The position numbers and the translations under genes were made by a program. Source: Tetracentron sinense (Eukaryota; Streptophyta; Magnoliopsida; Trochodendrales; Trochodendraceae). From it: a DNA stretch of 64,000 bases. Where the stretch lies: the NCBI GenBank assembly GCA_015143295.1, contig CM026551.1, positions 9,444,499 through 9,508,498 of the forward strand, in the 5' to 3' direction. The notes below the pieces were generated by a model. That model was not told the DNA's origin. It worked only from the letters and a program-made list of their open reading frames with translations, and made no database searches. Shown here piece by piece: positions 5,109-62,690 of this stretch (position 1 is its first letter; the number at the start of each line of letters is the position of its first letter).

Positions 5109-8049
<2,941 letters not shown>

Positions 8050-8120
8050 TTTTTTTTGTGTGGTGTTCTTGAGATAATGAATAGAAGGAGATGTGAGAAT
8101 GTATGAAGGAAGTGGAGGTT

Positions 8121-8128
8121 TATTTATA
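8121..8128 (-). promoter_or_regulatory. Candidate TATA box of the beta-amylase gene
   Basis: Reads TATAAATA on the minus strand, 72 nt before the ATG at 8049. This predicts transcription starting roughly 30 nt downstream and a 5' UTR of about 40 nt, rich in A and C, as is common in plants. The position and match to the consensus are seen; use as the promoter is inferred. Confidence 0.55.
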
Positions 8129-8519
8129 AAATAAATTTGCATTTGAGTGAGTTCGTTGAAGGAGACAATGTTGGTGGGCTCCTGTTAAAAAACAGAATAG
8201 GCGCAAAAAATCAAAACTAAGAGTCGGCTTACCTTTTCTTATACGCGGTTATTGTAGGGCCATTTAACGGTTACCTCTGAGGGTAAAAAAGTCATTTGGC
8301 ACTTTGAACTTTGTCCTAAATTGTCCTGGTATCATTCTCCTCCCTTGAACCTTACTAGTGGGGGGTCCTTTGGCTGCAACTTGCAAGTGGGTCAAATGAC
8401 TATTTTACCCCTTAGCGCTTAAAAATTCGAGTTGGACAGTACAGGATATCCAATTTGTATACTCTGTATACAAAATTAATATAAACTTCCATTATTTGGC
8501 TACTACTTGGAGGAATAAA

Positions 8520-54510: not shown

Positions 54511-55028
54511 ATGGCATCCAACAGTAGATCTAATGTAAGTTCCTCCAACCCTAGACACCTGGAAGTCGTAGGAGGTGTAAATACTCGGAGTGATAGCCCA
54601 AGTTACGGATTACAACAGTGCAATTTAATGGATCCAATTATCTAGAATGGTCTTGGTCAATGAAGATGTTTATCGGTGGCAGGGGTAAGCTTGGGTATAA
54701 AATGGTAGAATAGTTGAAACTGATGTGTCAGATTCCACACATGAGAAGTGGGAGATTGGCATTTTAACTATAATCTTGATTTGTTCACTCTATGCAACCA
54801 CAAATTAGTAGGGTTTTCTATTCCTGGTAGTTGCTCAAGAGATTTGGGATGTTGCTACTAAAACTTACTCCCAAGTTCAAAAATTTTCTCCAGTTTATAA
54901 GCTGAGTCAAGATATAGCTCATTATCGTCAGGAGGAGAAGACCTTGGCTAATTACTTTGCCTCTTTACGGAGTAAGTGGGAGGGGCTAGACCATTGTGAT
55001 GTGTTTATACATGTGTGTCAGGTTGATT
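54511..55028 (+). pseudogene. copia gag, first part
   Basis: Starts at an ATG (54511) after the leader. A typical copia gag phrase (FNGSNYLEWSWSMKMFI) is at about 54625-54675 and LRSKWEGLDHCDVF at about 54964-55005, but in different frames with stops between. Gag packages element RNA into particles in active copies. Ends at the MITE at 55029. Confidence 0.65.
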
Positions 55029-55593
55029 AGTGCAGTCAAGGTGTCGCCTAGACGTTTTTGGACCATCATCGCCCAGACGCTTCTCTAGGCGGGTGGTCAA
55101 GAACAAAATTAGCTTTTTATGGATGAGGTCAAAACTTCAACTTACAAATGCCAAAGTATTTCTCAAATCTTATAATTTCTTAAAATTCTAATATATCAAA
55201 CACTATTGAAAATATTTTAAAAAAAATTGTAAGAAAAGTCTCATATTTTAGCCTTCAAAAATATTTTTATCTATAGTGTCAAAAAGTTAAGTAACAATTC
55301 AAAAGAAAACTTACACCACTTGATTTGTTGGACATTTATCTTGTTCCAGACATTGAGAGAGAGATTGGAGCATTGCAATTAGAAGTATGTGGAGAACTTC
55401 CCAATGATATTCTCATTTTTGTTATTGGTGTCAGATTTAACTAGAGTCACCATTGTGTCAATAAAATAAACGTGCTACTGAGATAAACAGGAAATAAGGT
55501 GGGCATTTAAATGTTAATTCACCTAGATTATTGTCAACCCTAGGATGTTTGAATTGTTGTGTATATATTAATATTATATAAATGTATATTTGA

Positions 55594-55624
<31 letters not shown>

Positions 55625-55711
55625 TTTAATTAATTTTATTGCCAATGCATCACCTAGCCAGGCTTAATCGCCTAAGCATCACCTAGACCACTAGATGCCT
55701 TTGACTACACT
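55029..55711. mobile_element. MITE with AGTGTAGTCAAA ends, copy 2, inside gag
   Basis: 683 bp. The left AGTGCAGTCAAGGTGTCGCC and right (reversed) AGTGTAGTCAAAGGCATCTAG are TIRs. The interior is AT-rich and holds a (TA)n run at about 55593-55618 and a second CACCTAG cluster near the right end. Gag-like sequence stops at its left edge and resumes at its right edge. Confidence 0.65.
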
Positions 55712-56196
55712 GGAATATAAGAAGAAAGTGGAGAGAAGCCGGATTTTGAGTTCTTAATAGGTTTGAACCCAGAATTTGAGTTGGTTAGGGTTCAAATTCT
55801 TAGTAAGGATGTGTTATCATCCCTTAATCGGGTTTATGCATATGTGTGTTGTGCAGATTGAGGAGAGTAGGAGGAATGCTACTCAATGGTATAATTTCTC
55901 AATTCTTGATAGGTTTGCTCTTGCTTCATCTATTATTCCTCAGAGACGAAATAGAGGGGGAGGGAAGAAGTTTCCAAAGGTGGGTCTGATGGTAAAGATA
56001 AGTTGAAATGCATTCATTGTGGGAGATCGAGGCATACAAAAGAAATTTGTTGGGATCTAGTTGAGCGCCCAGTAAAGTTCAATCAACCAGGAACATCAAC
56101 AGCATATACTGTCTCCTCCACCAGTACCACTAAGAGCAATGACACATGCAACGACTCTCTTCTTCTAGGGAGATGGTTACTATTCCCAAAAAAGAG
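55712..56196 (+). pseudogene. copia gag, second part with zinc knuckle
   Basis: Contains the CCHC knuckle KCIHCGRSRHTKEICWDL at about 56006-56060 (C-x2-C-x4-H-x4-C), the nucleic-acid-binding motif of retroelement nucleocapsids. An indel around 55985 separates it from the upstream frame. Interrupted at 56196 by the inverted-LTR element. Confidence 0.75.
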
Positions 56197-57736
56197 TGTT
56201 GGATGTATGGGTGTTGTACCCAATCAGCGCTGGATGTATGAATATTGTACCCAATCATCCCTCTAGGGGTATTTTCATCTTTTTTATTATTTTTCCTTTT
56301 ACTTATGTCTTGTAAACCCTAATCTTAGTATGAATGAAATTATTGAACGTTACTCAAATTGACAAATTCTCCATGGTATCATAGCAAGAAGACAAGTCAT
56401 ATGTTCATTTTTTTTCCGTTTTTGGTTGGCCCCACAGGGGCTCTTACAAGGCGATTAGGCATGGACCTCAACCTGTCCACGAAATACAAGACTGCTCCAA
56501 CCATAGCATACTTGTATATCGACCACAAGTAGCGATATAAAAAGCCCAGGACTCGAAGCTGGATTTGGAATGTGAAAAGTGAATACACTTACCATTGATA
56601 CACATCACAGTCGATCGTAAAAGAAAATTGATAATTCATTCCAATTAAGTTTCCGTCATTAATCTGGACATTCTTCTCAAAAACAATAAAATGATTCAAT
56701 TCCAGAGCCAAATATCATAGTTCTCGAACGAGCAATTGAAAAGATATTAGAGCATCCTTAGGGTGAGATATTGTTCCTCCAATGATTGTAGTACCAAATA
56801 CCTCCTGACGAGCTCTAATATGATCTGATTTATAAGTAAGCATCTCTTGTAAAATATGAGTAACACAAAATCCCTCCAAAGCCCAAACTTTCATTTCTCC
56901 AATCTATTGCCCTACTTGCTTGGCTCTTCCTCTAAGACTATTGTGTAACAAGTGTATAATGTCCATGGATTTTATCATCAACTTGATGAATTAATTTAAG
57001 GATCTAAGACTTTCCTATTATAACAGGATGTTCAAAAGGATCTCAAGTTCTTCCATCAAATATTCTGCTTTTTTCGGGTATGGGTTCAAATATTCATTGA
57101 TTTGTTGTTTGCTTACTAGCTTTATAAAATTCTAGAAATACCAGTTTTCTCAAAGCTTCTAGTTCATATCTCTCATCAAAAGTTGTTATTCGATGATGCT
57201 TGTCTAGCAAACCCCCTCTAACCCAAGCGAGCATTCAAATACTTGTTTAGCATTCATTCGTGAAGGTACTCCTAATGGGTTGAAGATTATATCAACAAGT
57301 TTTTCATTTTGCAAATAAGGCATATCTTGTCTAGGAAAAATTTTGTAAATGATACATTTATTTCTGTCTTCTTGTGTATCAATGGTCAGTGTATTCACTT
57401 TCCACGTTCTAAACCCGACTTCAAGTCTCGGGTTTTGCATATCACTACATGTGGTAGATATACATGTTATGGTTGGAACAGTCTTGTACTGCATTGGCAT
57501 GTTACGGTCCATGCCTAACCGCCTTGTAAGAGCCCTTGTCGAGGCCATCCAAAAAACATGAAAAAGAAATCAGGTCTTGTCTTCCAGCTCTAATACCATG
57601 TAGAATTTGAGTAAACTTAAATAATTTTATTAATACTAAGTTAGGATTTACAAGGTATATAAATAAAGTGAAAAATAATGAAAAGACTAAACTATCCCTA
57701 GAGGGTTGATTGGGTACAATACGCGTACATCCAACA
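56197..57736. mobile_element. Inverted-LTR element carrying a plastid rpoB fragment
   Basis: 1540 bp with perfect 11-bp ends TGTTGGATGTA / TACATCCAACA. The arms 56197-56604 and 57373-57736 are inverted copies (about 80% by eye). Each arm reads as LTR (TG...CA), then a tRNA-iMet primer site (56374-56385; complement at 57587-57598), then a leader. So two LTR+PBS+leader units stand head to head with plastid DNA between. The left arm has an extra tandem copy of about 30 bp (CTGGATGTATGAATATTGTA). The TSD is imperfect (AAGAG against AAGTT). The host gag frame resumes right after 57736. Confidence 0.75.
56605..57372 (-). pseudogene. rpoB: Plastid rpoB 3' end (NUPT), frameshifted
   Basis: The minus strand encodes the C-terminal part of the plastid RNA polymerase beta subunit: [10 protein letters not shown], then [12 protein letters not shown] and FECSLGLEG at about 57350-57215. 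The coding similarity then continues in another frame down to about 56640, where the ending (FGSGIESF region and the trailing spacer) and an ACGATCGAC word at the rpoC1 start position can be matched. A single-base loss near 57222 and several others break the frame, so it makes no polymerase subunit. It fills the space between the two inverted LTR arms. Confidence 0.85.
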
Positions 57737-58157
57737 AAGTTTGAGAGTGTTCTACGTATTATGTCTCAGCTAGGGAACACTTCAGTTTTGGCTCTTACTC
57801 ACACAAATACTCATGTATCTTCCCTCCATGCCACTTCCAGTACTGATACTCCGTCATGGATTATTGATTCTGGTGCTTCAGACCACATGTTGGATATGCT
57901 ATCTCTATTTTGTTCATATAATATTTGTTCTGATTTCCAAACTTGCTTCTATCATTTGTTCTTCATTTTCCTAATCTTTCAGTAGCATCACTATAAACTT
58001 GAATTTTAGTGCCACCTTCTTTCCTAATCATTGTGTTTTTCAGGACCTAAGTTCAAATAAGATGATTGGCAATGGTCGTGAGGCTGACAAATTATATCTC
58101 CTTGAGGGCACTCCAACAAATTCTACACACACCGTAGTAATATTAATGGTATTATAA
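57737..58157 (+). pseudogene. copia protease and pre-integrase part
   Basis: Aspartic protease active site SWIIDSGASDHM at about 57859-57894 (D-S/T-G motif). Further on, in shifted frames, the pre-integrase region NHCVFQDLSSNKMIG is readable around 58027-58070. A stop at 57983 shows decay. Confidence 0.75.
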
Positions 58158-58502: not shown

Positions 58503-58690
58503 CACCGATCGCTCGGTCCAGTCAGCGATCGATCGGTCCATAACCGATCGATCGGTAGCTATCGCACGGTCAGAAATTTTGTATGGGGAAATTTTCCAGA
58601 GAGTGAGTTTTTGACCGGTCGATCGGTCAGTAACACCGATCGCTCGGTAGGCAACCGATCGATCGGTCATAACCACCGATCGCTCGGTCC
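58503..58690. repeat. Cluster of palindromic ACCGATCGATCGGT words
   Basis: Seven or eight copies of ACCGATCG(A/C)TCGGT or one-base variants lie within 190 bp, spaced about 15-70 bp. Each is a near-perfect palindrome rich in CpG and GATC, in otherwise AT-rich DNA. Both strands are open here as Asp-Arg-Ser repeats, a by-product of the palindromes. Confidence 0.85.
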
Positions 58691-59680: not shown

Positions 59681-59955
59681 CAAGGAGGTTGGTAGCCCAG
59701 GGAGGATTCGGGTACTATCCTCTGGCTCACAAGAAAACTAAACAAGAAGTAAAAATCACCTATTGTCAAGGAGGTTGGTAGCCCAGGGACATTCGGGTAC
59801 TAACCTCTGGCTCACAAGAAAACCCTGCATTTCATAACAAGGAGATTGGTAGCCCAGGGAGATTCGGGTGCTAACCTCTGGCTCACAAGTGCATTGCATA
59901 TCAAGGAGGTTGGCAGCCCAGGGAGATTCGGGTGCTAGCCTCTGGCTCACAAGTT
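59681..59955. repeat. Four variable-spacing repeats, each a hairpin
   Basis: Units start at 59681, 59766, 59838 and 59902. The core of about 52 bp is CAAGGAGGTTGGTAGCCCAG, GGATTCGGGTACTAACCTC and TGGCTCACAAG; the spacing shrinks (85, 72, 64 bp). Within each core GAGGTTGGTAGCCC pairs with GGGTGCTAACCTC. Confidence 0.85.
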
Positions 59956-61267: not shown

Positions 61268-62690
61268 TTTTTTTTTTTTTGATCGGTAAAAGCAATTTAT
61301 TAAAAAGCAAACCAAGCAAATTCACCAAAAGTGAATCAACAAAGCAAAACAAGGAAAGTTAGCAAACTAACAACTAAGCAAACAAACCAACCACAAAACC
61401 ACTCCATCCCAACACAAACAACCCCTGCCCCAACTAGGAAATCAACTCATCAAACCCTAATTCCCCCACATCAACTTTTGTAGAGATCCAGTCCCGCATC
61501 AAACTTTTCGATTTGAAGCACACTCTCTCGATAGGCATAGCGGAATTATCGAACACCCTCCTATTCCGTTCCTTCCACAAGGACCACGAAACCACACCCG
61601 GAAGGGAAGCCCAGATGAGATCAAAGGGGCTCTCAAGCGAGACTGAAGACCAACTAGATAAAAGGCTCTGAAACGAAGACGGGAAGATCCAGGCCACTCC
61701 AAGCTGGCAGAGATAGTGAACCCAAAGCCTCCTCGCAAAAGAGCAATGCACCAACAGATGATCAGTCGTTTCCTCCTCCATCGAGCACAAAAAGCACCGA
61801 TTAGGAAGACTCCACCCTCGTTTCCTCATATTGTCGAGGGTCAAGATCTTGTCCAAACAAGCCGACCACAAGAAGATAAAAACCTTTGACGGGACTCCTG
61901 AGAACCAAACCACCCGGTGAGGGAAAAGCGAATGAGCATCCGGATGAGTTATCTGCAAAAAAGATTTGACAGAGAATAACCCTTTGGAGTTGGCGGTCCA
62001 AACACGATGATCCTTGGAAAATGCCTCAACACGCACCGACTCTAATAGACCCAAGAAAACAGCAAAATCCTGAACCTCCCAATCATTTAACGGCCGCGTG
62101 AACGAAGGGCTCCACACCCTAACACCTGATCCCCTATCAACCATATCCGCAACTGAGGCCATCCTATCCGTGGCTAAAGAGAAGAAAGCGGGGAATACTT
62201 GCTTCAGGGGAGAGGAACCACACCACGAATCCAACCAAAACTTAACATCTACCCCATTCCCAACCACGATGCGCGTATACTTAACAAACTCTGCCCAACC
62301 CGCCACAATAGCTTTCCAAAGGCCTATCCCATGAGGACCTCTAGGCGGCCGAGGCTCCCATTTATCTCTACTCCCATGACGAGCCACAATAACTGCTCTC
62401 CACAAACTGTCCCGCTCGACCCCAAAACGCCACAACCATTTACCCATCAAGGCCTTGTTAACTCGCCGCATATGCCAAATGCCAAGCCCCCCATTCTGTT
62501 TAGGACGGCAAACCCAATTCCACTTAACCAAATGCATCTTTTTGACCACCACCTTATCGTTCCACAAAAACTCCCTCTGCAAACTCTCTAATTTAGCCGC
62601 AATGGAAACCGGGATTTTAAACAGAGAAAGGAAATAGGTTGGAAGACTGCAAAGCACACTCTTCAACAACGTAAGTAATAAAATTCTGAG
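61268..62690 (-). mobile_element. 5'-truncated LINE (L1-like), zf-RVT domain
   Basis: Minus-strand retroposon. A poly-A tail (poly-T at 61268-61280 on +) marks its 3' end. The open frame 62669-61434 (411 codons, alternative or truncated start) begins in the end of the reverse transcriptase/thumb region (LLKSVLCSLPTYFLSLFKIP) and runs through the zf-RVT domain (RVVWFSGVPSKVFIFLW, RCFLCSMEEETTDHLLVHC) to the C-terminus (SLWKERNRRVFDN). The upstream endonuclease and RT core are missing. The open frame with no stops suggests a young insertion. Confidence 0.88.

Follow-up and report, generated by a model that had tools for sequence, protein, structure and literature searches.

Facing LTR-SINE arms around a plastid rpoB fragment, probably an unusual retroelement insertion, in a Copia gag of Tetracentron sinense

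Several described systems share features with the locus reported here. Copia-type TRIMs are closest in their parts, sharing with our element LTRs of about 140-150 bp with TG...CA ends and a primer site directly behind; at our locus, in contrast, two 5' LTR arms face each other, the end formed by a tract plus a 3' LTR is lacking, and plastid DNA and a SINE-like repeat lie inside. TRIMs with small-RNA heads are also on record, according to the accessible part of PMC10886601. Complex LTR insertions attributed to template switching in Triticeae were integrated whole with 5-bp target site duplications (TSDs) (Sabot and Schulman 2007; PMC1950507, in its accessible part), and they resemble the present element in being chimeric retroelement DNA thought to have been made before integration and inserted as one unit. 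They differ from it in having three LTRs and clean 5-bp TSDs, and the word "inverted" is absent from the main text of that paper (PMC1950507). In LTR-mediated retrocopies, template switching joins other RNA into copies of LTR elements (Tan et al. 2016, as cited in the accessible part of PMC5408686); as described there, those have ordinary LTR ends and mRNA cargo, in contrast to the two U3 ends and plastid cargo of our element. Retrosequences of Ty1 are covered in PMC7175516, likewise accessible in part. DIRS-1 has inverted LTR-like ends in common with our element, but it encodes a reverse transcriptase (RT) and a tyrosine recombinase (PMC5633606, accessible sections), whereas no open reading frame (ORF) of at least 200 aa is present here.

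Among the titles and opening lines of abstracts in the open-access literature, we found no integrated plant LTR element with inverted LTR arms, and the accessible portions of the literature on template switching, retrosequences, DIRS and TRIM elements held no case of facing 5' LTR arms around plastid DNA. The locus looks to us like a one-off aberrant retroelement insertion, with the two U3 ends and the plastid cargo as what is unusual about it. Fragments of rpoB occur at several other places in the same genome, and we take these to be NUPTs (nuclear plastid DNA); the piece described here differs from them in that the SINE heads of inverted arms bound it on both sides.

The inverted-arm structure around plastid DNA, at positions 56197-57736 of the window (the whole 64-kb stretch of DNA analysed, which contains no N), is real. 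In a blastn comparison of the element with its own window, the arms at 56197-56604 and 57373-57736 were inverted copies of each other with 78% identity over 377 columns (E = 1.6e-80), and repeat finding recovered the same pair as several ungapped inverted blocks. Both outer ends start with TGTTGGATGTA, which bears out the perfect 11-bp ends given in a preliminary description of this DNA. That description had read each arm as LTR, primer-binding site and leader; the inverted pair of LTRs and primer sites stands, and the inner half of each arm turned out to be a SINE-like repeat and not leader. From outside to inside, each arm thus comprises a TRIM-like LTR, a primer site, a short leader and, in reverse, a SINE-like repeat with its head against the plastid DNA.

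The left arm (408 bp) begins with an extra 31-bp copy of its own outer end, that is, of the LTR 5' end (56197-56227, plus strand; a direct repeat at 84%). It continues with the LTR (56228-56373, plus strand), which matches direct LTR pairs at other loci, and with the primer-binding site TGGTATCATAGC (56374-56385, plus strand), which directly follows the LTR, aligns with the same site in TRIM-like relatives and is presumably complementary to initiator tRNA-Met. Behind it are a leader (56386-56418, plus strand) and the SINE-like repeat (56419-56604, minus strand), which is reversed, with its tail at the primer site and its head at the plastid joint, and has LTR-free copies elsewhere (e.g., L016-L020). 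The right arm (364 bp) runs from its own SINE-like repeat, again with the head at the plastid joint (57373-57556, plus strand; matches to dispersed copies), through a leader (57557-57586, minus strand; placed by arm-arm alignment) and a primer site reading TGGTATTAGAGC on the minus strand (57587-57598; placed by arm-arm and LTR alignments) to the LTR (57599-57736, minus strand; LTR matches elsewhere), whose outer end is the LTR 5' (U3) end. The U3 terminus is exact at both outer ends of the element, against intact host sequence. In the alignments, the two arms break off on the SINE head at points no more than about 4 nt apart, the head being slightly longer on the left arm than on the right, and the joints at the plastid piece look blunt or share 0-2 bases, with no clear microhomology. 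The blastn match of the element to the window held no trace of a direct right LTR, and the window ORF list held no ORF of at least 200 aa overlapping the element.

The extra 31 bp is confined to the left arm; the right arm has no such repeat. The first 32 bp of the left arm are identical to the LTR start at L009:4050, and the differences between the two left-arm copies of the LTR start (5 in 31) sit in the inner copy (window 56197-56258). If the extra copy arose as a later tandem duplication, 5 differences in 31 would be in line with the age of the element.

The centre of the element (56605-57372, minus strand) has stops in all six frames and was assigned by protein and DNA matches to the decayed 3' end of plastid rpoB, a spacer and an apparent rpoC1 start. 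On its minus strand, a 58-residue stop-free piece had as best PDB match the RNA polymerase beta chain 8w9z_B (1070 aa; E = 1.6e-19), a chain that we take to be from a plant plastid, and Pfam domains PF00562 and PF04560 (Rpb2 domains 6 and 7) were found as well. Judged by these similarities, the centre is a sequence encoding the decayed C-terminal part of RpoB, in agreement with the rpoB 3' end reported in the preliminary description. Read against two nuclear plastid-like copies, on C5 and C9, the plastid piece seems to extend further, to the first codons of rpoC1, with what we take to be the start of that gene marking its end. These two copies continue past both borders of the centre and agree with each other there. 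The other nuclear rpoB copies are of different ages (e.g., C5:47506807-47507592 and C9:28428417-28429169) and lie 0.4% to 8.9% from a per-site majority to which they themselves contribute. We also considered and rejected a single nuclear plastid copy as the source of the centre, as none of seven copies has most of its private changes in common with it (0 to 10 shared of 2 to 44, in a comparison that was not exhaustive). A DNA search of the centre in plasmids gave one weak bacterial match only.

Searches for relatives covered a genome of 1.16 Gb, in which the best candidates were scored, so that the counts given here are lower bounds. The LTR search returned 30 matches at the own locus and elsewhere, with all 30 candidates scored. 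A direct LTR pair was present at all seven loci fetched around the stronger matches (L009-L015), with LTR starts 1.07-1.65 kb apart. A primer site, decayed to varying degree, is recognizable behind the left LTRs of these relatives. The right-arm LTR matched both LTRs at each of the seven loci at 74.5-85%, the match covering only a part of the LTR at some of them. Next to the LTR ends, 5-bp target duplications were matched at 5 of 5 positions at three of these loci and at 4 of 5 at another three, with one unclear. When a relative's LTR was used as the query (40 matches; pairs derived from coordinates), all nine non-self LTR pairs within 5 kb were direct, seven of them being the fetched loci, and an opposed LTR pair was absent from the 30 LTR-match loci, with about 1.5 kb on each side, except at the own locus. 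A G-rich tract lies ahead of the right LTR in L009 and L015; inside our element there is no polypurine tract before a 3' LTR, both LTR 5' ends facing the host, and its five purine runs of at least 9 are A-rich or mid-rpoB. At C4:39105048 (L062, C4:39104700-39106700), a Copia-like primer site and leader with 85% over 48 bp to the arms' leader stand behind a different LTR and without the SINE, which suggests that LTRs and leaders were exchanged between families.

The inner arm piece (56419-56604 and 57373-57556) occurs without the LTR at many places in the genome, with an A-rich tail in four of five aligned loci (L016, L017, L018 and L020; not clearly in L019). We regard it as SINE-like, with a putative tRNA origin; a B-box-like stretch was seen by eye, and over 56100-57850 ARAGORN predicted 0 tRNA genes and Rfam gave 0 matches up to an E value of 1. 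The joining of this repeat to the LTR was found in our element only. With the whole left arm as the query (best 40 of 56 candidates scored), LTR plus SINE was spanned only by the two own arms; with the stretch from the right-arm primer site to the SINE head (best 40 of 43), the primer-site end was covered only by the same two arms; and the three candidates for a 101-bp junction piece, all scored, were the two arms and the SINE-less place on C4. No donor with the LTR-SINE fusion was thus found outside the two arms among the scored matches. That the junction is common to both arms and occurs nowhere else among these matches argues that either one arm was copied from the other or both came from one donor. 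The genome-wide count called for in the preliminary description gave one full copy (best 40 of 160 candidates; whole left arm, best 40 of 56). Because the fusion occurs only in the two arms and the LTRs elsewhere are direct, the element looks, on these comparisons, like a single event and not a mobile family, which argues against a family of transposons with terminal inverted repeats (TIRs).

The host is a decayed Ty1-copia-type gag. To the left of the insertion it occupies about 54511-56196 (plus strand; start approximate) and contains a zinc-knuckle-like motif, CIHCGRSRHTKEIC; to the right it resumes at 57737-57960 (plus strand) with the end of gag and the protease motif DSGASDHM, as judged from translation and relatives. 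Alignment with empty sites places the triplet GAG (56194-56196, plus strand; AAGAG if 5 bp are taken) as the last host bases on the left and AAG (57737-57739, plus strand; AAGTT if 5 bp) as the first on the right. A right-flank query (best 40 of 75 candidates) yielded 40 host matches, of which eight were fetched, picked for reaching near the insertion point; all eight were continuous and lacked the element at the site. Two of them (L054 and L059) read GAA-GAA-GAG-TTG-G there, L055, L056 and L058 differ from this by one to three bases, and L057, L060 and L061 differ more, while the window reads CCC-AAA-AAA-GAG, element, AAG-TTT-GAG-AGT. Compared with the uninterrupted relatives, the site has kept all host bases and has gained 3 bp net. 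No clean 5-bp target duplication was seen between AAGAG and AAGTT; the flanks could be a duplicated 3 bp in which one base has changed, or a duplicated 5 bp, AAGAG, whose right copy would have lost AG.

The resumption of the host gag frame across the element, which had been pointed out earlier, holds locally: the joined flanks, unmodified, translate as ...VTIPKKE|KFESV..., with one extra codon relative to VTIPEEELESL-like sequences in the relatives (by eye). The host gag is frameshifted further upstream, and the resumed frame is therefore a local one only. A 5-bp duplication restoring the frame was rejected, as it gives the wrong frame, and comparison with the relatives shows ...VTIPKKE|KFESV with a 3-bp gain. 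The absence of host loss, the 3-bp gain and the U3 identity of both outer ends together indicate that the unit arrived whole, as had been proposed; exact U3 ends against intact host sequence would not be expected from an ordinary insertion rearranged in place. The same Copia gag contains a second insertion at about 55020-55710, AT-rich and with inverted-looking ends AGTGCAGTCAAGGTGTCGCCTAG and CTAGATGCCTTTGACTACACT (by eye), perhaps a non-autonomous DNA transposon.

The trapped plastid piece allows the arms to be compared with an internal standard, and the locus can serve as a dating check in which arm-to-arm divergence is set against the decay of the centre. Against the per-site majority of the seven other nuclear copies, the centre has 80 differences over 744 sites (10.8%; 20 ambiguous sites excluded). 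Without the extra 31 bp, the arms differ at 59 of 358 to 66 of 361 sites in trimmed pairwise alignments, depending on the gap setting, and at 71 of 362 with MAFFT, that is, at 16-20% of aligned sites with gap columns (17-25) excluded. The corresponding JC distances are 0.186-0.227, versus 0.232 (2 x 0.116) expected for two identical arms decaying at the rate of the centre. As arm divergence is about twice the decay of the centre, the arms were almost identical at the time of the plastid capture, and this capture and the palindrome are of about the same age, a dating that rests on similar neutral rates and on the majority sequence as a stand-in for that of the plastid. Multiple alignments that include relatives put the arms further apart: 34 of 144 sites differ in the LTR and, counting some non-homologous end bases, 60 of 241 in SINE plus leader, and the resulting JC distances of 0.28-0.30 are above the 0.232 expected. 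A tree of LTRs only (19 sequences) did not group the arms, each being nearer to L010:2825 than to the other arm, with weak supports, whereas a SINE tree (7 sequences) placed the two arms next to each other with 60% support.

The explanation that we favour, and to which we give about even chances, is one aberrant retrotransposon insertion, in which palindromic retroelement DNA with two U3 ends was inserted whole into the Copia gag. The starting point would have been a small non-autonomous TRIM-like element in which a SINE-like repeat followed the primer site, and from it an incomplete DNA copy consisting of LTR, primer site, leader and SINE would have been made. The inner end of this copy, at the SINE head, would have been joined to a plastid rpoB-rpoC1 fragment, and synthesis would then have turned back close to this point, by fold-back or strand switch, and copied the arm in the opposite direction as far as the U3 end. 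The product would be a linear palindrome that ended in the same U3 terminus on either side and entered the Copia gag in one piece, the most likely enzyme being a Copia integrase supplied in trans. Copying back from one molecule would account both for inner ends within about 4 nt of each other and for U3 at both outer ends; formation outside the chromosome, fold-back in preference to the joining of two molecules, and integrase as the enzyme are what we infer from the features above. More tentatively, and as a possibility we would lean against, a plant Copia integrase may have accepted two U3 ends and no U5, and the palindrome and the trapping of plastid DNA or mRNA may have been a single event. 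In that case the slightly longer SINE head of the left arm would mark this arm as the template, with the growing strand passing onto the sense rpoB-rpoC1 strand, as it would when plastid mRNA is copied. Several observations count against the favoured explanation. The flanks are GAG and AAG with a 3-bp gain, which fits a 5-bp duplication only if AG later disappeared on the right; the 31 bp on the left is unmirrored, which makes the right arm an inexact copy up to the present left end unless the repeat arose later; and the joints lack clear microhomology, the LTR tree, with weak supports, does not unite the arms, the divergence from multiple alignments exceeds expectation and no donor of the LTR-SINE fusion was found among the scored matches.

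The main rival, which we think rather unlikely, holds that a pair of independent incomplete copies, derived from one element or from two close relatives, were end-joined inner end to inner end with plastid filler and then integrated as a unit. Plants often trap plastid DNA during end joining, the joints here look to be of the blunt or 0-2-base kind, and an unmirrored 31 bp and an LTR tree that does not unite the arms come more easily with two molecules; but both molecules would have to carry one and the same LTR-SINE fusion, which was seen nowhere else among the scored matches, and their inner ends would have to lie no more than about 4 nt apart, at the SINE head or close to it. The arrangement could also have arisen in place, if an ordinary direct-LTR element was inserted first and a later break repair copied its 5' arm in reverse together with plastid DNA. 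Break repair is known to leave inverted copies with filler, and the LTR family is ordinary elsewhere, with nine of nine other pairs direct. Repair in place predicts, however, an outer U5 end at the target duplication on the right, where an exact U3 terminus abuts intact host sequence, and the window match gave no trace of a direct right LTR, so that we consider this course improbable.

The preliminary description had offered two readings, a palindromic product of reverse transcription and a TIR transposon that uses former LTRs as its ends. The former is now the better supported, by arrival as one unit, a clean site, arms of about the age of the capture and a single copy. The latter, including a DIRS-like variant with plastid cargo, would explain the inverted ends with their 11-bp perfect match, and a 3-bp gain would fit some TIR superfamilies; it is nevertheless very improbable and gained no support from the genome search, in which there was one full copy, no other inverted LTR pair and no other LTR-SINE fusion among the scored matches, and the lack of any ORF of at least 200 aa over the element leaves it with no transposase, RT or tyrosine recombinase gene. 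A false inverted duplication produced by the assembly, with junctions at assembly joins, had been raised in the same description, together with the prospect that the arms exist elsewhere only as ordinary LTRs. The arms' LTRs were indeed found elsewhere only as ordinary pairs or singly, but assembly joins can be dismissed at the junctions: between the arms, 59-71 of 358-362 aligned bases differ, in addition to 17-25 gap columns, the window lacks any N and the host is continuous on both sides, which makes the likelihood of an artefact negligible.

If the integrase reading holds, the machinery of LTR elements can insert molecules with U3 ends only, and inverted retroelement dimers would be one route of organelle DNA into plant chromosomes. 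Such insertions could escape annotation that seeks only direct LTR pairs, or be listed as TIR elements.

The remainder of the window has further repeats and ORFs. Repeated palindromic units, CGATCGATCGGT and CGATCGCTCGGT, occupy 58520-58690, and direct 64-bp repeats, three in register, lie at 59755-59953. ORFs on the minus strand at 5109-8142 resemble exons of a chloroplast beta-amylase gene (by eye), and a 411-codon ORF at 61434-62669 resembles, likewise by eye, the C-terminal part of a plant LINE reverse transcriptase.
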